64,000 nt of DNA from Siphonodentalium dalli (Eukaryota; Mollusca; Scaphopoda; Gadilida; Siphonodentaliidae): the NCBI GenBank assembly GCA_032622095.1, contig CP136063.1:76609980-76673979 (forward strand), in the 5' to 3' direction. Positions 6,100 through 62,766 of this stretch are shown one piece after another. Position 1 is the first letter of the stretch; each line of letters begins with the position of its first letter. The notes under the pieces are model-generated. The model ran no database searches. It was given only the letters and a program-made list of their open reading frames with translations, and was not told the origin of the DNA. A program made the position numbers and the translations under genes.

Positions 6100-7530
6100 G
6101 GAACTCAAAAATATCTCTTGAGGGCATGGGTGGGGGCCCGCCACAAATACCCCATAGAAACACCACCACCCCGGTGGTGCCATCCGGACGGCTGAAAATG
6201 GGGTATGGACCATTTTTGAGAACGGGAAGGATTTCGGCGAATTTGACGGCATGAATGGGTGGCTCGCCCAAAATACCCGATAGGAACATCACCTCTCACC
6301 CCGGCATAACAAGGGTATGGACCATTTTCGAGAACGGTAAGGATTTAGGATAATTAAGTTGGCAGCAGGAGTGGGTGGCACGATCAAAATAAACCATAGA
6401 ACCACCCATACCCACCCCTCACCCGGGGGGGGGGGGGTGCCACCGAGGAGGTGGAAATTGGGTACTCCCAAATACCGAATAGAAACACCCCAACCCTCAC
6501 CCCCGGGCAAGGGTACCTCAAATAATTCATATAAACACCACACCCCTCACATCCGGGCGGGTGGGGGTTGGTTACCACCCAGGGGTGAAGATGGGATATG
6601 AACCATGTTCGAGAACGGAAAGGATTTCGGCCAATTTGACGACAGGGGTGTTTGGCCCGCTCCAAATATCCCCTATATAGACACCCTACCCTCATCCCTG
6701 GAGGGTACCACCCTGTTGGGGTGAAAATGGGGTATGGAGCATTTTGTTCATTATTCGCAAAAACACGCCTCTATTGCTCAATATTACGGCATGTGTAGGT
6801 GGCCCGCCCCACTTACCCCTTAGAAACACCCCACCCCTCACCGGGTGTCGGAATGGGGTATGGACCGTTATCGAGAACGGTAAGGATTTCGGCCAATATG
6901 ACGTCATTTGTGGGCGGCCCGCCCTCAGATATAGTCCATAGAAACACCCCCACCATCACCGCGGGTGGTTCTACCAGAGCGGGTGAAAATGGGGTGTTTC
7001 TATGGGGGGCATTTGGGATGTGCCACCCACCGTTCTCGAAAATGGTCCATACCCCATTTCACCCCCTCGGGGTGCTACCCCCGGGTGAGGGTGTTTCTAG
7101 GGGGTAGTTGGAGCGGGCTACCCACACTGCTGACGTAAAATTGACCGAAATCCTTACCGTTATCGAAAATGGTGCATACCCCATTTTCACCTCCTGGGGT
7201 GGGCTGTTTCTATGGGACATTTGAGCGGGCCATCCATCCATGCCGTCAATTGGCCGAAATCCTTACCAGTCTCGAAAATGGTCCATATCCCACGTTCACC
7301 CCCTCGGTGGTACCCCCCCCCCCCGGATGTGAGGGGTGGGGTGTTTCTATGGGTTATTTGGGGCGAGCCACACAGCCGTACCATCAAATTGGCCGAAATT
7401 CTTACAGTTCTCCAAAATAGTCCATACTCCACCCCATCAGGGTGGCCGTTACCCTCCCCCGGGTGAAAACTGGGGTGTCTCTGATGGGTATCTTGGCGGG
7501 CCACCAACCCATGCGTCAAATTGACCGAAA
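6100..7530. repeat. Foldback-type G/C-rich minisatellite, copy B with longer left arm
   Basis: Same repeat as at 1-880, with the left arm visible in full. Forward units occur near 6190, 6310, 6595 and 6855, and reverse-complement units near 7030, 7150, 7255 and 7390. The arms meet at about 7000. Runs of G or C lie at the same place in most units. The last unit decays near 7520 (TTGACCGAAAGAGACC). No transposase is visible between the arms, so this is either a non-autonomous foldback element or a satellite that inverted by itself. Confidence 0.8.
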
Positions 7531-7884
7531 GAGACCTTTTTGTGAATAAGGAATCAGTTTCAAAAGTCATGTTCGTGTCTAACGTGTCAATCTGATCAGT
7601 CCGATCCCGCCATGCTCTCAGCCGCCAAACCGACATCCGAACGAGCGAATTGCAAACAGACATATATAGCAAGAAATCATCCATCACACTGGCACATATT
7701 TTATTAGAATTTATCTCATAAGTACCGACATCTCCTCCCCGAATTCCACTAAGACTCTCCTGCTTGTACATTGAGTGACAAACGCCCGCGCATAAACGCC
7801 TCCCCCCAATTCAAAATAAACACTCCCATATACGGGAAGAAACAACATCAATACTGGGCGGAAAAAATCGGCCGAATAATTAAA

Positions 7885-8271
7885 CCCAAAAAACTAGGTT
7901 TTAGTAAAACCTGGGGTAGGGTGGTTTAACTTTGATGTTTTTTCAAAGTATATTTAAAGGTATATTTTCGAGACGAGACGTATGGTACGTATAAATCATA
8001 TATACCTAAGCTTATACTGATGATTATATAGCCAATTCACCACTAACAATTAGTAATATTACCATATCTTTATCACGTCAATAAAACCTAGTTTCAATTG
8101 AGATCGAACTTAAACTGAGTTTATCACAAAACTGGGTTTAACTACACTAAAACCCAGTTTCACTCCCATCAAACATAGTTTAACTACAGTAAAACCAAGT
8201 TTAAATCCTACTTAAACCTAGTTTAAACTGGAGTTAAACCTGGTCTAGAATAAAACCTAGTCTAAACCAGA
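7885..8271. repeat. AAACCTAGTTT palindromic minisatellite, copy B
   Basis: Duplicate of the tract at 1225-1616, with the same motif variants in the same order. It ends immediately before the copy-B transposon-protein fragment. Confidence 0.75.
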
Positions 8272-8272
8272 G

Positions 8273-9066
8273 ATGCCGATCGGACCTTGGAGTCTAATCA
8301 CGAAGAGGCTTACACTAGACTTATCCTTCATTCATTTGATTCCAGCATGGGGTGCAATCTGAAACAAATTATTGTGGTGAGTAGGGACGTCGATGTTCTA
8401 GTGTTATTGCCTGCATATTGTGATGTGTTCATGATGGCTGGAACTTCCAAAAGCCCTAAAATTATACCCATCAGTGATGTTGCCATCCAAATATCGACCG
8501 ACGCTCTGAACTATATTCTAGCGTTTCATGCTTTAACGGGGTGTGATTCAACTTCGTTCATATATGGGGTGTCTAAACGATCCGCATGTAAGATTTACCT
8601 GAAATGTTGTGAACTCTTAAAGGGTATATGTAATATTGCAATAGCCACTGAAACAATTGAAAGTGCTGAACATTTTGTATGCAAGTTGTATGGAGTTTCC
8701 GATGCAAAACTCAACGATGCAAGATTCAGGATGTTCACTCGGACTGAATCTCCTGAAAAGCTTCCACCAAACAGTGACTCATTTCATTACTACTACCTTT
8801 TGAGAACAAACTACCATGTTTTAGTTTGGAAACAAGTAACCATTCCTGTGCAAACATTACCGGATCCTTCGACAATGGAATGGAAAGAAGAAAATGGTCG
8901 ATTAGATCCAACCATGATGTCACTAGAACCCATTCCAAAATCATGTCTCGAAATAATCAAATGTGGGTGCAAACAGGGGTGTGTAACAGCAAGGTGTGCA
9001 TACAGAAAATCAGAGTTACCCTGCACACCACTCTGCAATTGTGGAACTGACTGCAATAATAAATAA
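8273..9066 (+). pseudogene. C-terminal fragment of CXC-type transposon protein, copy B
   Basis: Near-identical to the fragment at 1618-2415, with the same HEEAYTR, SRDVDVLVLL, HALTGCDSTS and cysteine-rich C-terminal motifs and the same stop. Copy B lacks the 4 bp near 8297, so the ATG at 8273 is out of frame. The conserved frame reads ESNHEEAY with no upstream ATG. The homologous position of the minus-strand relative reads SSHEKADTR, so copy B looks like the ancestral state. One further change turns SVVSRD into IVVSRD. There is no sign of a promoter or complete protein. I regard it as a captured gene fragment carried within the duplicated block. Confidence 0.7.
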
Positions 9067-42302: not shown

Positions 42303-45201
42303 CTTACTTACTTCTTACTTCTGTAATCCAACCGTCCAGCATCGGACAACCTCAACTTGTTGAGTAAACTGTACATATTTACAGGTACCATAACGTCACC
42401 ATATTAGGGGATAACATATATAGGTTAAAATACACCATGCATGGTCATTCGTCGCCACCAATGTTCTTTCTGTCGATCGAATACTTCTTTCTGGCACAGT
42501 GCAAGCGATAGCATAGATGCATTCAGTTTTGATAGCAGAGCTGCAACCTCTTCGCAATCCTCAATCTGCAATATGTGAATCCCATTACCCAGGGTGACTG
42601 TGAGTTTATCCTTTGTCGACAAGTTGTTGAAATCCTCTTTCGTTATTTCATCATATATGTTCTTGATATGTTGAAGACAACCCCCTCTGACCGACTCTAA
42701 AATCTCACATTCCAACAGTAGGTGTTCAATAGTCTCTCTCTTCAAGTTACAGCAACGGCATTTCCCTTCTGACTTTGAGATGTTAGATTTTTGGCTGTGT
42801 ATTTCTAGCGTATATGTGTTAGTCAGCATCTTCAGCTTCACCGCAATCTTTGCTGTGATGTCATTAGCTGAATTCATACCACCAATGATGTTGTTGATCT
42901 TTCCTGGTGTATAGGTAGTGTGATCCAGTAGTTGTAAGGTGCTGTACAGATCTTGTAGTAAGGTAGTTCTTCCAGTAGCGGTTGACTGAGTCTTTAATAA
43001 TTTTCTTCCAGGCATTTTTCTTCACGGGGTGATGTAATAAGTTCAATGGAGATGGTAGCTCGTATTTATACAATATTCTCCTGACATCATAAAACCAGCT
43101 GTTGCTTTTCTCATCTTTCAAGATTAGTTGACGGAATGCCAGTTTTTTCTCTATTAAGGATTCATCTTGATGAGTGAGATTGTTGAAGAACGTGAGAGCC
43201 TTCAAGTCGATTTGTGCCTCTATCGGGAGGAGACCTGACAGTATGTATATAGCAGGTTCGGCTACGTTTGGTAGTAGAGATAGCAGCTGCTTAACGAACT
43301 TCTTCTGATATCCCTCCAGCATGTTGACGTGTCTTTCTTCTGGTAGCAGGATTTCACATCCATATGTCAAAGTGGGAATAACATATGTCCTATAAATATG
43401 AAGGCATGTCTCTTGGTCCAATCCGTTCTCCCCATGGAAGCCAAGCGGCATTAGACTATAAGCTGTTCTTCTCGCCTTTTTGATATTATTTTGTATGGTT
43501 TCCATGACTGATTTGGTGGCTGTTGTTGAGCGGAGTATACCAAGATGGGCTGCCACATCGACATTGGGCATCTGTGTCCCAGCCAGATCCCATGTTTTGT
43601 CAACAATATTTTTTCTTCCGTTTTGTGAAATCTTCAATATTACACATTTCTTCGGTTGAAGGAGATAACGATGTAAATTACTGTATTGATATGCAGTGTT
43701 GATCAGGATTTTGAGATCATTTGGATCACTGCTCATCAGTGCGATATCATCTGCGCATGATGTGGAGTTCATTCGGGTGGTTCCAATGCTGCTACCCAGT
43801 CTGTTCGCCAGCAGTGAATGCAGTAGATCCTCTATATATAGATTGTAGAGGTCGGCGCTTAAGATACCACCCTGTCTCACTCCTTGGTGTGTCTCGAATG
43901 GTTCCGATCTTTGGTTGTCCCACTTTACAACGGATACACAGTCTGTGTGAAGGTTATCGATCACTGACCAGCAAACAGCGTGAGTGCTTGTGATGTATGT
44001 TTTTCTCATCAGTATTTCTTTTGTGACAACGTCAAAGGCTGACTGCGCATCCAGGAATGCTACATATATCGGTGTGTTGTTATCCAGGGCTTCTCTGACT
44101 ACCTCCTCGACCATAAATGCACTATTACGTGGAGATGCGTTGGCGGTGAATCCTCTTTGAGTTGGAGCTTGTGTAGAGTACATTTTCGTAGGAATTCACG
44201 CATGATGACTTCCACAACTTTCAGGATAACTGGTAACACAGTGATGCCCCGATAATTGGAAGAGTCTTGTCGCCTTTACGTTTATATATCGGATTAAGTA
44301 GGCCGATCTTGAGATTTGCAGGCACTTCTTTATTTATCAGGATACAGTTGATTATGCTCGTTAGAATACCTAGCAGGTCTTCGCCAGCAAAGATAAAATG
44401 CTCCACTGTTAGCCCAAAGATGTCCTGGGCTTTTCTTCTATGTAAAAATCCTAATGCATTGATCACGTCCCCACAACTGACCTCTTCTAACTTATCGTCT
44501 GGTAGACATTCTGAGATGTGTTGATAGTCCCTTTGACATAGTTTCAGGAAAGTGTGATTGTAGCCATTGGCTGCTGGTTTAGCGAGATTGCTGAAGTGCT
44601 GATGCCAGCCTTGTAGTACTTGCTCATTACTGTACACTTGTCCGTCCACATTAAGGTAAGATATCATTGCGGCTCCCGAATTTCTCTGTTTACTTATTAA
44701 TTTATAGAATGTTTCAGAATCAGATGCCCTTGTTGTCATGATCTTGTCCTTATATCTTGCATCCTTCACGCTGACTGCTTCTCGATCTTTCGTGCGGTAG
44801 ATCCTTACGAGATTCTTTCTTTTGTACTAAAAACATGTTATCGTGGTCTGATGGTCTTCCAGCTTTTACCCAGCTACTGTGCGCATTTCTATTTGAGTAT
44901 AGGGCTGCGGCTATCTCTCTGTTCCAGACTTCAATATTTGGTTTATTCTCTGATGGTTTTTTCGCTATGGTTGCCTCATTTGCACACTGCTCGAGCACCG
45001 ATGATAATTTAGTCACAGCATGTTGCAGTTGAACTGTGCTTGTAGAGCCGGGGATACACTTCAGCGTTGCAGATTTGTGTGTTACAGTGCTTGCGTATAG
45101 TTCAGTGTTGATCTTTTTCCAGTTCACTTTCCGTGAAATGACAGGCGTCTTATTTGTTTTTGCTATTTGTATTCTTTCATGCAGTTCCAAGTAAACTGGT
45201 A
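42303..45201 (-). pseudogene. 5'-truncated LINE reverse transcriptase B
   Basis: On the minus strand four overlapping frames together make one LINE ORF2 lacking its endonuclease. 45190-44750 holds a linker. 44769-44221 holds fingers and palm start, with LGFLHRRKAQDIFGLTVEHF. 44183-42864 carries the core palm with FLDAQSAFDVV, GVRQGGILSADLYN and CADDIALMS, plus thumb. 43015-42425 holds the C-terminus with a CRCC...H...C zinc-knuckle-like motif. Frame breaks lie near 44760, 44200 and 43000. The 3' end is a short (AAGT)n tail at 42303-42320. TATCA flanks both ends (plus-strand TGATA at 42298-42302 and 45202-45206), a likely 5-bp target duplication. Reverse transcriptases of this type copy their own RNA at nicked target DNA. 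This copy is inactive. Confidence 0.88.
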
Positions 45202-57070: not shown

Positions 57071-59085
57071 CCAGGGGCCTGTTTCATGAAGCAATGTCAT
57101 AAGATTATCTTAAGATGGACTTAATCTAAGATCTAAGGTGGATCTTATGATGTAACTTTTCCGTTTCACAAAACAAGATTAAGTCCTACTTAAGTAGTAA
57201 TTTAAGTTCGCGCGCTTTTAGACTGGCTCTCGACAATTTATTACAGCTATGCACAGAAAATGTTGGTTCTGTGTATGTTATATGCCTTGGTACAGTGTCT
57301 GGTGACAGATACTAGGGCGTGTCTAATTATAAGAATAATTATGATATTTTAATGCAAGGGCGATAATCAGTATAATGACTGGTGCATACTTAACTGCACG
57401 AGCGCGCTTTTTAACTGTTTTCGCGTCAGACCCCATCCACACATAGCTGCATTCTTCCAATGCCTATTTTATACAAACGTAACGAGCTCAAATATATTAT
57501 TTCAGTTATAATATTAAAGGGACTTATACATCGTAACTCAGAATGTGAATTTTCACCCATATAACATACCATTAAGGCGACGCGAGACATATGTTCGCTC
57601 CTTTCAATGCTGATATTAGGTTCTAATACATTATACGTCTTTGAAGCATCTATAATTCCAGGAAACCGAATATGTCGCCACGACGGCATACACATACAAT
57701 AAACCACAACGGAAGCACTGAGCTAAACGCTCTTTATTGATTGCCAACATTCATGGAATACCAACACAAAACGCTCTTCATATCGTGCTCCAAATAGACT
57801 TATTTCCAATCTGAGACATATACTTGTAGAAGCCATATATAAATGATGTTAATGCCATTTGCTCTGGTTCTGTTGACAAATGTGCTAAACGCCTGTTATA
57901 ATTAACAAACTGCGTATAAACTTCGAAAGTACGTTACGTTGAACGACATTCTGCATATATGTTTTAATAAAAACCAAATCAACGACTTCTAATAAAGAGC
58001 GTTTATAATTAACAACACGTGAACAGATGTAGGTGTAAAGGCACGGTATAAGTATAAACGTTTCCCATACGTTTGAACGGCAAAGTGATATACATACAGT
58101 AAGCAATTATTTCATGTGTCTTTTGGGAACAGTCAAAATTTACAGGCCACTGTGGAAAATTACTAAAATACCAATATAGACTATACCACTGGTATAGTCT
58201 AGATTGGTATTTTAGTAATTCCCCCAGGGACCTGTGGGCCGGTTCACAGTGATATTATATGTTCTTTCGCGGTTCCCGGTGTGCCCGCGCGGTCCGTATA
58301 CTATATACATGCTATATATCTTTTTATTTCATAGTTAATAGATTATGATAATATACATAATAATAATAATAAAATAACACATATTATGTATTATTATCTT
58401 GCCGATATATATACGGGGTACATATACGATACATTTTACAATCAAATTATAACATAATAATATATAAAGGCAAGTAAATAATAGTCATAATAGCTGACAT
58501 AAGCATTTATAAAAAAAAACTGAGTATAAGTCATTCACTATTATCCTCGATGTGAAAATGTTCGGACTAATTGTCTCAACATGATTATTGTCTACAGTGC
58601 GATTGGGTGATTTGAATTGCAAATGGATGTTCAACTCTATGTAAATATATTCTTTTTGTTACAGCAATTAGAAATATATATAGTCCGGTCTTGGCGGTTT
58701 ACAGTTAGTAGCGGACACCCCGCCAATCTTGCAACCACTGGCCACGTCACTGCTATAGCTTACCAGTTGGTTATTAATTACTACCATTTCTGAATGAAAC
58801 ACCCCTCCGTGCTAGCAAGGTGTTATTCAGTTAAATGTGTTTATAATAATATATACATGAACTAGATCCCATCCACATTTCTGACCAACTGCGGATCACA
58901 ACGTAGGTCTTAACTTTAAGATTATCTTATGACACCTCACACCAGTCTTAAAGTTAAGACCAAAGATAAGACCATCTTAGGTTAAGACTTTGTTCGTGAA
59001 ACGCACTTATGACTGAAGTTTGAACTTATGACCATCTTAAGTCCCAACTATGTCATAAGTTGCCTTCATGAAACAGGGCCCTGGC
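57071..59085. mobile_element. 2-kb element with CCAGGGGCCTGTTTCATGAA inverted ends
   Basis: The left end CCAGGGGCCTGTTTCATGAAG pairs with the right end CTTCATGAAACAGGGCCCTGG. Further inside, both ends carry TCTTAAGATGG/CCATCTTAAG-like subterminal repeats (TCTTAA, CATAAG motifs at 57090-57160 and 58905-59050). GGGGCCTGTTTCAT termini recall Harbinger/ISL2EU-type DNA transposons of animals (inference). No transposase frame is visible, so the element is non-autonomous. It includes a nested palindrome at 58142-58236 and CGCTCTTTATT motifs at 57727 and 57768. Confidence 0.75.
58142..58236. repeat. Nested ~95-bp palindrome
   Basis: ACAGGCCACTGTGG.AAATTACTAAAATACCAATATAGACTATACC is followed by the near-complementary GGTATAGTCTAGATTGG, TATTTTAGTAATT, CCCAGGGACCTGT. 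The arms are about 45 bp around CACT. It has its own CAGGKMC-type ends, so it is probably a small MITE inserted in the 2-kb element. Confidence 0.75.
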
Positions 59086-60269
59086 TGAGATTAAGATGTA
59101 GCAATCTTAACAGCGATCTAAAAGATAACCAAGACTTGCCTTATTGCATGTGTGGTTGCATTGAAACTGCTAGACATTTTTTTCTGGAATGCGCTCAATA
59201 TACCTCTCACAGAGAAGAACTTTTTAATACCCTATCTGATGTAACAATAACTAGTGAATTATTACTATGGGGATCTGATGAATTATCCTATGAAACTAAT
59301 AAGAAAATCTTCATGGCAGCTCAGAAATGTATAATAACAGGTAATCGCTTTCAACGATTCTTCTCTTAAGCTGTTCCAAAATTGCAATATTGAATTGCAT
59401 GGTACATCATAAACCGAGATGCTATTGATCTCTCCAACGTGGGTCGTCGGGTCGATGGACCACTGCATATGTTCACATGGTTATTTTTCCAATCACAAGT
59501 TATGTATAAATACTTTTTATTTCCTTGAAATGTGTTATTATATATCTTTTTGGTTTATTTGAAATTAATTATATGCATGTTCAGATATATAATTACACCT
59601 CACACTCTGTACTCTCTGACCTTCTCTATAAAATTCTGACATTATCTTCTGTCCCTTTGTCTCGCCTCCACCTCATATTTCTTCTTTCTATGGATCTTTT
59701 TTATGCCTCTATTATTTACCCCTACTTGACTTGCAGTCAACTAGGGCTGTGCCATTGTCAAGGGAGAGGGCTTCAAATAAGCCTAACCCTAATCCCATTT
59801 TTCTTCTAAATTTGTATCTATTGTAATTATTTATCTGAATGTCCATAGAGGGAAAAATAAATACTGTTTAAACTAATACTAATGGTGGAATAGTTATGTA
59901 ATAATTGCTTTACCCCCAACTAAATTAATGTACTATTTTGCTGTTTAATCGGCGATAATGTTTCGCTGAGAGTTGGCGTCTTAGATTACCACTAGAAACG
60001 GAAGTTTTTTCTTGCGATTTGATTGGTGGACTAAATAAAATTCCGGGTAAATTCGCCCCATGGATATTCGACTTTGTTTGCGAACTTTTTAAAGTATCAC
60101 TACACCCAGTGATGCGGGAAACGACACTTCCCTCGGCTGATAGAAATTGTCGCTACCACGTGTATCTAACGGCCTTGACCAATCAAATGTACGCATTTAA
60201 GTAAAAGCGAAAGTAGTTGTAATTATATATACATATACGTTTTACATCAATATGCCAATACTTAATTTG

Positions 60270-60569
60270 TTTTGTTTTAAACAGCCCGGGGCCATTGCGG
60301 ACCACTCTTTCAGGCTGGGCATCCCCACTTTCAGGGATGATGCCCACCCTTACGAGATGGTCAAAGTGCCCGTCGGACGTCAGACCCAGCAAGAAGCGGC
60401 AGTCAGTCAGTAAGGCCCACTCGTCCTCCTCAAGCTGCGAACCCATACCGTCGAAGTCCCATCAGAAACGTATCTCAAATAAGGGCTCGATCAAAGCATA
60501 GAAACCATGTTCACCGCCAAAATAAAGATACTACACTTTGATCTTAGCCAAAACGCCGAGAAGCCATGC
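60270..60569 (-). mobile_element. U2 snRNA-headed SINE with 9-bp target duplication
   Basis: On the minus strand the element starts at about 60568 with ATGGCTTCTCGGCGTTTTGG, then CTAAGATCAAAGTGTAGTAT. That is nucleotides 1 to about 42 of U2 snRNA with a few changes (metazoan U2 opens ATCGCTTCTCGGCCTTTTGG). A ~230-bp unrelated body follows, with a strong hairpin GGGCATCATCCC...GGGGATGCCC near 60310-60345, then a short A-rich tail (GTTTAAAACAAAA). The exact direct repeat CTTAATTTG (plus strand) at 60261-60269 and 60570-60578 is a target-site duplication. This matches snRNA-headed SINEs (SINEU type) rather than a plain U2 pseudogene, because the body replaces U2 sequence. Short frames on either strand, although protein-like, do not cross the element ends. 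Confidence 0.8.
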
Positions 60570-60816
60570 TTAATTTGGGGTTTCCAATGAGTCATGCATG
60601 CTTATATAGCAGCACTGGACATGCCTGTATGCTTATTCTTGTTGTATTAGTGTGTATGTGCAGTGGGGTGTTCTTGATTCATGTGTGTAAGAAATTACGT
60701 TGGTTGCAATTAATTACATGGTTTATTCGCTTGTTAAGCGGACATTGGCTTATGACATTTTTATTAATTTTGGTGTTACATTATCCATAGCACATCTCTA
60801 ATACACACATACAGAC

Positions 60817-61144
60817 CTGTCAACACAAGTTCGTATTTAAATCCGTTTGACGCATCCAGTTGTTCTGCATGTGCACTGATAAAGGTGGTGTATAGTCTGC
60901 ATTCCTGTGAGCCCCGATGGTACAAAAACGACAAACATGTAGCTATGTTTATACATGAGACTACACATTCTAACTTTGAGCGAACTGTCCATTCAGCGAA
61001 TGGTAAAGTCTTCGTTGGAACAAGATTTTGAAATTCTATCTCGGTCCTGTAATTCTCTGTTGCTTGACATCTTGTCAGATCGAACGCGACAATCAAGATG
61101 ACTAGTAACAACCCCATGCCAATGTTGTTGAAGTGAGGTGACAT
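60817..61144 (-). CDS. First coding exon: signal peptide plus PAN/apple-like domain (partial gene)
   Basis: On the minus strand the ATG at 61144 opens a secretory signal peptide (MSPHFNNIGMGLLLVILIVA, then FDLTRCQA). A PAN/apple-like domain follows, with TVRSKLECVVSCINIATC, FLYHRGSQECRLY and GFKYEL, showing the C-x3-C-x5-C...C layout typical of PAN domains, which bind proteins or carbohydrates outside the cell. A donor CAG|GTCTGT after 60817 ends the exon in phase 1, fitting the phase-1 acceptor of the EGF exon at 48203. An alternative donor at 60826 would give phase 0. The frame is open further upstream, but the ATG at 61144 is preferred because it leads directly into the signal peptide. A 12.6-kb intron to the next recognised exon is implied. 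The SINE lies just inside it. Confidence 0.75.
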
Positions 61145-62766
61145 CCGTATCGTGTTGTTGGGACAAAACCAACAAGTATTCCTCGTGGCACTGGTGTTTT
61201 CTGAATGCACAATATCTGCGCAGGTAACCACTTGAATGATTATGATTCCTGGGTCGCCGTGTTGATCATGATGTGGTATATTAGTCGGTCGCAATCAATA
61301 CGCCCACAACGTCACAAACGAAGGCGTGTGCAGCCATACATAACCCCCATAGCTCATCCTGCAATCCAGCTTTAATCGGGAATAATAGGTATATACGGAG
61401 CCCCCAATCACACTGACCTGGGTGTAACCCAGAATACCCGCCACGCCTGGTCCGAAAGTATCTATATGCATATTAAATATAGGCAATTTAACTCGAATAT
61501 CTACATTCCTTTCATGGATGTGTGGACCGGTCGTCGTCGGCGGCGGATGTGGTCCGGGCACCGCATGTACTGGACATTTGGCCATGCATGGGGAAGTCCG
61601 GGATATCAGCCGACGCCGACGTCATGTTTCGCACATCTATGGGGAATGCTAATAATCAGCACTATATACATAAATTATATATATAGTAATCCATATTATT
61701 TAATATATGCTATTTATTTATAGCTATTATACCGTTTATGGTCGGTCTGTCTATATATGTACTGTCTTTATATCATACGATGTATGATTTATAAGAAATA
61801 AGCTATTGTACAATACCCCCCCCCCCCCCCCCCCCCCCAGACGAAGCCTCGATCCGCTCATCGCTGCGATCGGTCCACCTATTCACCTAATGTTATGACC
61901 ATGATCCTATACATAAAACGATATATCTTATAATTGACCAGTTATTCTATATAATATACAAAGATATCACCACAGATTTCAAAGCGAGTGGTGACTCGGG
62001 ATACTCGGCGGATGCTATAACTCCGTTTTTTTCTTTACATTTTGATTCAATACACTGTTGATTATAATTTGTTGTTAATAGGTTTTAAAAAATAATTTAT
62101 TTTTAATAAAATGTTTTAAAAGATCAAAACACATCAAGAAAACATAAACGCTCTTTATCGTTTGCGAAATTTCTGATTCATTTTCTACATATATACAAAT
62201 ATATCGTGCACTCAAACAAATCAAAAAAATTTAATTATTTTTTTTAAATATTTTTTTATTAATCAGAATTGTTTTAAGTTCACAATGCCAAACCGCACTT
62301 ATATTATAGACTCCGGTACGATTGTGTCAAATTTATATTGTCTGCGCGTGTATATTAGCAGGGGAAGTCACATCGGTCGCCTTACCGATTCAATGCACGC
62401 CGACCACAGGGTGCTGAATCTACAAAGAAACAGAAAAATTGAACGTTTCAGACACTGGCTTTGCGCAAATCACTCGGATTAGCCTAACCCCGCGTAAATG
62501 AAAACTGTAAAAAAAATAGCTGTACTTTTTCGTAACAGCATCAGTTTTCCCTACCAACATACCATTGATATTCATCAGGACCCCAGCATCATAGCAGACT
62601 AGAAGGGCCACTTGATCAGTGGTGTGTATATCTTGCATTCATTATGACGCCTCGGTTTGTCTACCAGAGAATATTGAAACGGTCTATGTATCGTACACCT
62701 TAAGATTGAAATAAAATATAATTGAAACACACATAAGTAATTTGTGTATCTATCAACCTGTTTTGT
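61145..62766. other. Upstream region of the PAN-exon gene; no gene seen
   Basis: Contains a G/C-richer patch (61430-61630) that may be promoter-proximal, a 23-base poly-C run at 61816-61838, and AT-rich sequence with a CGCTCTTTATC motif at about 62149. No second gene is supported. Confidence 0.4.
61816..61838. repeat. Poly-C run (23 bases)
   Basis: A homopolymer of 23 C on the plus strand. Its length is prone to sequencing and assembly error. Confidence 0.9.

Follow-up and report, generated by a model that had tools for sequence, protein, structure and literature searches.

Short interspersed elements (SINEs) that begin with pieces of small nuclear RNA (snRNA) are an already known class. Kojima reportedly described in 2015 the crocodilian families SINEU-1, SINEU-2 and SINEU-3, with 5' heads derived from U1 or U2 and repeated 5' addition of snRNA pieces; these families are also said to insert preferentially into Mariner-N4 and to have a Tx1 partner. 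They are the closest named elements known for the family described here, which was traced from one copy in a window of 64,000 nucleotides of the Siphonodentalium dalli genome. The two groups share snRNA heads at the 5' end and the successive addition of heads. They differ in that the present family also carries a U4 head and two unnamed heads, has copies inside donor genes (U4, U3 and a unit here called X1) and often has an extra G before the head. The host U2, with its ATCAAAG, is presumably of a protostome-like type, as opposed to that of the crocodilian hosts of SINEU.

With the classical tRNA-, 7SL- and 5S-headed SINEs the family has in common its size, its tail, 5' truncation and dispersed copies with duplications. 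The head of these classical elements is an internal RNA polymerase III (Pol III) promoter, whereas the present evidence points to a borrowed external one. Since the promoters of snRNA genes are external, both the transcription of snRNA-headed SINEs and the successive addition of heads have been a puzzle. Two further systems link snRNA with retroelements. Mammalian U6/LINE-1 chimeras, described as independent events, likewise join a small RNA to the 5' side of a LINE-mobilised sequence and have duplications; in S. dalli, by contrast, every head has been passed on to a family of copies (PMC13174262). Keno and Utopia are endonuclease-encoding LINEs that target U2 genes and insert there; the link between retroelement and snRNA gene is similar, but the SINE carries the start of U2 along, and Keno and Utopia have no U2 head (PMC4640811). 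Insertion inside U2 genes was not seen in our family, for the window copy and the dispersed copies that were read stand at unrelated sites. Among the literature matches listed, none named a U4-headed SINE or copies inside donor genes; these matches consisted of abstract beginnings and did not cover the key SINEU paper, and we make no claim that such elements are missing from print. Nor was any mention of the unnamed heads or of the cap-like base encountered in these searches.

The window copy is a complete U2-headed SINE of about 300 bp on the minus strand (60270..60568), delimited by profile search and direct reading, and was the sole match in the window (nhmmer, 260.9 bits, positions 2-307 of a 308-position model). 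Read along the minus strand, it consists of the 5' target-site duplication CAAATTAAG (60569..60577), a single C (60568..60568), the head beginning ATGGCTTCTCGG, the body (60285..60525, common to the dispersed family according to genome matches, alignment and profile), the A-rich tail GTTTAAAACAAAA (60270..60282) and the 3' duplication CAAATTAAG (60261..60269). The head (60526..60567) begins with the A at 60567 and corresponds to U2 snRNA nt 1-42. It is identical to the host U2 at 40 of 42 positions, or 41 of 46 if extended; divergence from U2 sets in after nt 42 in this copy and after nt 46 in the family consensus. Rfam RF00004 (U2) gave 39.5 bits (E 1.5e-5) without reaching the gathering score of 46, and only the head aligned in earnest. 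The body contains a strong hairpin, GGGCATCATCCCTGAAAGTGGGGATGCCC (60317..60345, minus strand), in a region that is also paired in the consensus fold of 28 copies, and a motif resembling a Pol III B box, GGTTCGCAGCT (60433..60443, minus strand), recognised by eye and of putative function. When folded, the 300-nt strand was unusually stable (z -3.15), with one of 200 shuffles equally stable.

The sequence-only reading of this locus had proposed a SINE with a U2 head of about 42 nt, a hairpin-bearing body, an A-rich tail and a 9-bp duplication. All of these could be read directly on the minus strand, and the coordinates it gave were correct to within one base. The head does not lie flush with the duplication, as one base, the C at 60568, separates them. 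Against the control distribution described below, the 9-bp exact duplication of the window copy lies at the edge and is by itself modest evidence; it is the evidence from the family that settled the identity of the element as a SINE. The best other matches (40 of 640 candidates scored) were C3:76598099 and C3:76590276, with 96-97% identity and both less than 80 kb from the window copy. They were excluded as independent copies. Locus L003 has the same 5' flank and duplication site as the window copy. The window copy and C3:76598099, with their common flank, go back to a single insertion that was duplicated locally; C3:76590276, not far away, is 97% similar to the window copy.

Several other features of the window were recorded. 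An open reading frame on the same strand about 200 bp upstream of the SINE (60779-61294, minus strand) matched PAN_1 (E 6.7e-7), and the SINE may lie in an intron of the corresponding gene or just 3' of it. A reverse transcriptase frame (42867-44183, minus strand; Pfam RVT_1, E 1.6e-15) probably belongs to a non-LTR element. A near-perfect palindrome of 61 bp (58159-58219) with weak microRNA matches in Rfam has the look of a small inverted-repeat element, and two pairs of open reading frames about 6.6 kb apart (592-2415 and 7187-9066) appear near-identical by eye, a local duplication.

The genome searched comprised 2.23 Gb in 9 contigs. A 26-nt body motif had 494 matches when as many as 3 mismatches were tolerated, and the U2/body junction had 194; the reversed control gave none in either case. 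Among the junction matches listed, 18 belong to one tandem unit. A search with the element itself returned at least 70 matches, again with 40 of 640 candidates scored. Thirty-six full-length copies from 27 loci, a few of which duplicate one another, could be aligned from the U2 start to the tail, and the head of their consensus, ATCGCTTCTCGGCCTTTTGGCTAAGATCAAAGTGTAGTATCTGTTC, equals host U2 nt 1-46 at all 46 positions, including the host-type AAAG. A duplication score of at least 9 was reached by 23 of 85 arrays or singletons, with differing duplication sequences, although L086 repeats L085 and L092 repeats L066. In the control of 416 mismatched flank pairs the 95th percentile was 7, the 99th 9 and the maximum 35, some loci having common flanks. 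No clear duplication at this threshold was seen for the other 62, many of which are truncated, old or rearranged. As judged by reading, the duplications tend to start with A's beside the A tail, as expected for poly(A) priming at a T-rich nick, the rule for L1-type elements. Dispersed copies with separate duplications, 5' truncations (L060, L061, L067 and L068) and A-rich 3' tails mark the family as a SINE. The condition that the sequence-only reading had set for a SINE family, many full-length copies with a U2 head, a shared body and different duplications, was thereby fulfilled, and its refuting alternative of a single copy was ruled out. A comparison of the element with an E. coli collection gave no match, as expected. 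The sequence-only reading had contained none of the further heads, nor the SINE copies in U4, U3 and X1 units, the tandem arrays or the extra G.

Two or more head-to-tail copies were present in 22 of 89 units, many with the same target duplication between the copies. This sample is biased, as L115-L118 were chosen for clustered matches and the others came in through top-scoring matches. Near-identical copies make up the array at L115; mixtures of subfamilies were found at L022, L027 and L079. A look of simple duplication, with segment means of 0-7%, was noted at L094, L115, L116 and L117; at L022, L027, L035, L041, L062, L079, L087 and L097 the most divergent segment of the copies differed by 16-27%. 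One target site, AGAGAATCTTC, was used at three loci (L094, L117 and L061). The arrays seem to arise both by duplication and by repeated insertion at the same site. The idea that array copies are hybrids, with a 3' half from new RNA and a conserved 5' half from the resident copy, was rejected, as no polarity of divergence was seen beyond the generally conserved head. Two minisatellites have grown from the SINE (L024 563-1258 and L038 26-610), with units of 59 bp from the head/body region and of 33-48 bp from the 3' part.

The body had also been taken to be unrelated to U2, and this holds for the most part. Rfam found nothing except the head in the window copy and in five others, and none of these copies is a complete U2 gene with stems III-IV. 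A second U2-like piece, TGATACGTCCCC, comes from the region of stem IIb; two of 500 shuffles reached its score, and the piece was picked after it had been seen. A derivation of the whole element from a diverged complete U2 was considered and rejected: the similarity of the body to the rest of U2 remained within that of shuffles (136 of 1000), and although the two appear collinear by eye, Rfam recognised only the head in the copies tried. The apparent collinearity remains unexplained. In the consensus fold of 28 copies, two-sided changes affected 7 of 57 predicted pairs and the covariation term was small (-1.58), which is not strong evidence for the fold. As to promoter signals, a B-box-like motif is present in the copy alignments, the head contains TTTT and an extra G often precedes it; no transcript data are available. 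No LINE with a common 3' end was recognised in a search with the 61-nt tail, in which 40 of 459 candidates were scored and the surroundings were read for part of them. At L104 and L105 the SINE is reduced to its last 100 nt, and these two loci have no long upstream sequence in common (0.58). The SINE copies at L104, L105 and L097 adjoin the same repeat (TTAACTCTTGGAGACT.AAGTCTAATCG).

Within the family, the window copy is assigned to the U2 stage. Other subfamilies carry additional 5' heads before a shortened U2 head, namely X1 and X2, both unnamed, and U4 nt 1-61. A shorter subfamily has retained only U2 nt 1-22, joined to CGAGCC; the lost segment is flanked by two arms that pair with each other in the fold, GGCT..GATCAAAG and CTTTGATCGAGCC, and the further heads stand in front of this 22-nt remnant. 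The X1 head reads ATCATACGCTATTTCGCTGTTGCGAAATGGGTGATCATTCG. The junction of GTGATCATTCG with U2 nt 1-22 (the CATTCG-U2 junction) had 141 matches. The X2 head ends with CCATTTGGCTGGGGTTCCGGACCATAGGGATGG and is followed by a remnant ending in ATCATTCG or CTCATTCG, and the U4 head, nt 1-61 by hand count, is followed by GTCTGATGCTCATTCG. Rfam recognised U4 in the U4 heads with 57.7-58.8 bits at a cut-off of 46; neither X1 nor X2 had an Rfam match with an E value of 0.1 or lower. The 5' ends of spliceosomal snRNAs are thus established as heads by the complete agreement of the consensus with U2 and by the above-threshold scores for U4.

The junction of U4 with U2 had 13 matches, comprising nine dispersed copies, one rearranged copy (C6:133611288) and three copies in U4 clusters. 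The latter lie inside U4 genes, L111 and L112 on C9 (C9:75470609 and C9:75484570) and L113 on C5 (C5:31178243). In all three the SINE follows U4 nt 61, and past the A tail U4 resumes with a repeated stretch of 25 nt (L111, L112) or 33 nt (L113) before the rest of the gene. The 200 bp upstream of L111, L112 and L113 agree with those of a SINE-free U4 gene of the same cluster (identities of 0.92, 0.98 and 0.965). The nine dispersed copies are found at eight loci, which amount to seven loci with distinct flanks as L066 and L092 have common ones, and their upstream sequences show identities of 0.45-0.62 to the seven SINE-free U4 copies compared. The upstream sequences of U4 genes from different clusters are equally unlike each other (0.51-0.65). 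The dispersed copies are therefore separated only from the sampled clusters, and one with the upstream sequence of an unsampled cluster would escape recognition. A clear duplication outside the U4 head was seen at L066, L090, L093, L094 and L095, and not at L091 nor for the first copy of L097. Given the same U4 5' junction but unequal duplications, one or more of the U4 loci probably received an RNA that was U4-headed already, or else underwent gene conversion; homology-guided re-entry must therefore be part of the story. An A-tailed U4 copy (L096, C7:96934232; 104.3 bits) is an apparent U4 retropseudogene, and the machinery that moves the SINE may also move plain U4 RNA.

X1 units without the SINE, that is without a profile match, are present at L144, L145, L146, L150 and L154. 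Six loci have the SINE within an X1 unit, four of them (L122, L125, L133 and L135) with common flanks. Upstream identity to the SINE-free units was 0.83-0.99 for these six loci and 0.51-0.63 for eight dispersed X1-headed loci; 5 of the 24 loci in this comparison had no X1 match within 5 errors. By reading, a TATA-like ATATAGG lies 33 bp before the apparent start of the X1 unit, and a few to about ten bases appear to be missing from X1 loci in place of a duplication. Two different junctions, CGTT|GCTTCTC (L142 and its dispersed relative L153) and CATTCG|ATCGC (other loci), suggest two or more captures of X1. X1 itself is dispersed, with 266 pattern matches with and without the SINE, and has two hairpins with paired changes of ATCA/TGAT to ACCA/TGGT; it is possibly an unknown small-RNA gene or a repeat. 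X2 (L129, L136, L137, L139, L147 and L148) is an unnamed unit with 71 matches and a long stem, in which the SINE is found at one 5' junction with duplications of differing length.

In a U3 array on C5, three genes that carry the SINE scored 68.9 bits and three intact ones 151-154 bits. The SINE-bearing loci L074-L076, one of which was read in detail, are probably a single insertion copied with the array. At L074 the U3 5' end extends to about nt 30 and is followed by the SINE body from about the point at which U2 stops in the consensus; about 110 bases of other sequence separate the SINE tail from the resumed U3. In the 200 bp upstream of this locus, identity reached only 0.67; judged by eye, conservation is confined to about the last 50 bp. 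Native upstream sequence is accordingly clear for U4 and X1 and weaker for U3. In the U4, U3 and X1 units alike, the SINE is placed a few tens of bases past their start. No source copy in a U2 gene was found; none of 41 search matches lay in the U2 places recorded, and 100 of the 194 U2/body junction matches were listed. On C3 (L110, 85.11-85.18 Mb) a tandem unit of 3.9 kb with a U5 gene accounts for 18 junction matches and contains a 3'-broken U2-headed copy about 350 bp downstream of that gene.

Among 25 loci at which the base adjoining the head could be read, 19 had an extra G (15 a single G, three AG and one AGG), for which P is 1.9e-8 at a background G frequency of 0.224. The remaining six had another base or none, and six further loci were undecidable because the duplication itself ends in G. 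To be counted, a locus had to have its complete head and to score at least 9 for the duplication; where a locus had several rows, these were merged manually into one. Omitted were L116, L117 and L094, whose head starts are altered and which, if counted as misses, would make the result 19 of 28; L136 and L137, in which U2 is internal; and L143, L086 and L092, which repeat another locus. The window copy has a C in place of the extra G. The G was seen with U2, U4, X1 and X2 heads alike. In the gene copies read, the base before the start is T (C5, C6, C9) or C (C8) for U2 and T (C5, C9) or C (C2) for U4; before X1 and X2 it is mostly C. With T or C as the base preceding the readable donor genes, the extra G was not copied from the donors. 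An untemplated G of this type is usually read as coming from the RNA cap, and its presence is as expected from capped RNA.

We consider it probable that the SINE has no promoter of its own and is transcribed from the Pol II-type small-RNA genes that it enters, whose leaders become its heads. The marks of insertion suggest that the family is mobilised by a LINE machinery which recognises poly(A) and works by target-primed reverse transcription, the window element being an old copy. If a copy landed a few tens of bases past the point where a small-RNA gene of the Pol II type starts, it would be transcribed from the promoter of that gene into a capped chimeric RNA, an inference made in the absence of transcript data. 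Retrotransposition of the chimera would give progeny with the leader of the host gene and an untemplated cap G at the 5' end, and repeated rounds would stack the heads in the order U4, X remnant, U2 and body. The copies in donor genes would then be the sources of the dispersed progeny, with capped RNAs starting at U4 nt 1 (L111-L113) and at ATCATACGC (X1 loci). The fuller account, in which U2, then X1/X2 and then U4 promoters, and also that of U3, were captured in series, so that the stack records the genes passed, and in which the U4 loci of C5 and C9 would be sources that are still active or were so recently, is favoured only slightly. Direct observation covers the snRNA-headed family with its stack of heads, the extra G, and the difference between copies in U4 and X1 units, which have native upstream sequence, and dispersed copies, which lack it. 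The direction from source to progeny is not proved and is the weak point, the U4 junctions being identical and their duplications unequal. No source copy in a U2 gene was found. It also counts against the borrowed promoter that X1 loci seem to have missing bases rather than a duplication, that the extra G is lacking at six of the 25 readable loci and in the window copy, and that an RNA ending at the A tail, while the U4 gene continues, is unexplained. Because of the weak upstream match in U3, and because U4 clusters are as unlike one another as they are unlike the dispersed copies, the explanation is held a little less firmly.

A different origin of the heads, which we regard as unlikely without dismissing it, is template switching, in which the reverse transcriptase jumped from the 5' end of the SINE RNA to U2, X or U4 RNA and lucky copies founded the subfamilies; the copies in U4 and X1 genes would have come later by homology-guided re-entry. 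The identical U4 junctions with duplications of 25 and 33 nt fit re-entry of a U4-headed RNA, and the extra G is accommodated as well if the snRNA was copied up to its cap. Such a founder would nevertheless be promoterless, and amplification to seven distinct-flank U4-headed loci and 141 CATTCG-U2 matches would still require a source equipped with a promoter; SINE copies that have native upstream sequence do exist for U4 and X1, and more weakly for U3. There is precedent in mammals, where chimeras of LINE-1 with U1-U6 snRNA, U3 and 5S have been attributed to template switching or RNA ligation (PMC13174262). Less likely again appears an ordinary SINE with an internal Pol III promoter, composed of a tRNA-derived B box in the body and an A-box-like TGGCTAAG in the U2 head. 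SINEs are by usual definition Pol III units, and GGTTCGCAGCC is mostly conserved in the alignments; the head, however, contains TTTT, a Pol III stop signal, with T15-T18 invariant in 28 copies. The G before the head is difficult for this reading too, as a Pol III RNA of this kind would not have such a cap, and Rfam, tRNA models included, gave no tRNA match at E up to 1 in the window stretch and none in five other copies. Virtually no weight is left for two further readings. One takes the element for a LINE of the Keno/Utopia kind, seen with the 5' part of its target U2 gene as left flank. Insertions of this type seem to be present in the genome, with U2 genes cut at about nt 31 on C5 between 203.8 and 204.8 Mb, yet what comes after the window copy is an A tail of its own and a duplication instead of the remainder of U2, and the copies stand at unrelated sites, which refutes it for the window copy. 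The other, a lone U2 pseudogene beside an unrelated exon or repeat, which the sequence-only reading had itself named as a possible refutation, could appeal to the match of only the first 42-46 nt to U2; it is refuted by the joint recurrence of head and body in 194 junction matches.

At six places read on C5 between 203.82 and 204.76 Mb (L052-L057), an A-tailed element (..AAAAAAA|GTGTAGTATCTG) interrupts the U2 genes near nt 31. The interrupter seems to be a U2-targeted non-LTR element of the Keno/Utopia kind, and similar U2 matches occur elsewhere.

For the borrowed promoter, the SINE copies in U4, U3 and X1 units, beside dispersed copies with U4 or X1 leaders and a cap-like G, look like the missing intermediates in the growth of snRNA-headed SINEs. 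If this is true, a SINE can do without any promoter of its own by borrowing one, and the borrowed promoter can be exchanged as time passes. U4 would be added to the types of SINE head, and snRNA-headed SINEs would extend beyond the crocodilian case.
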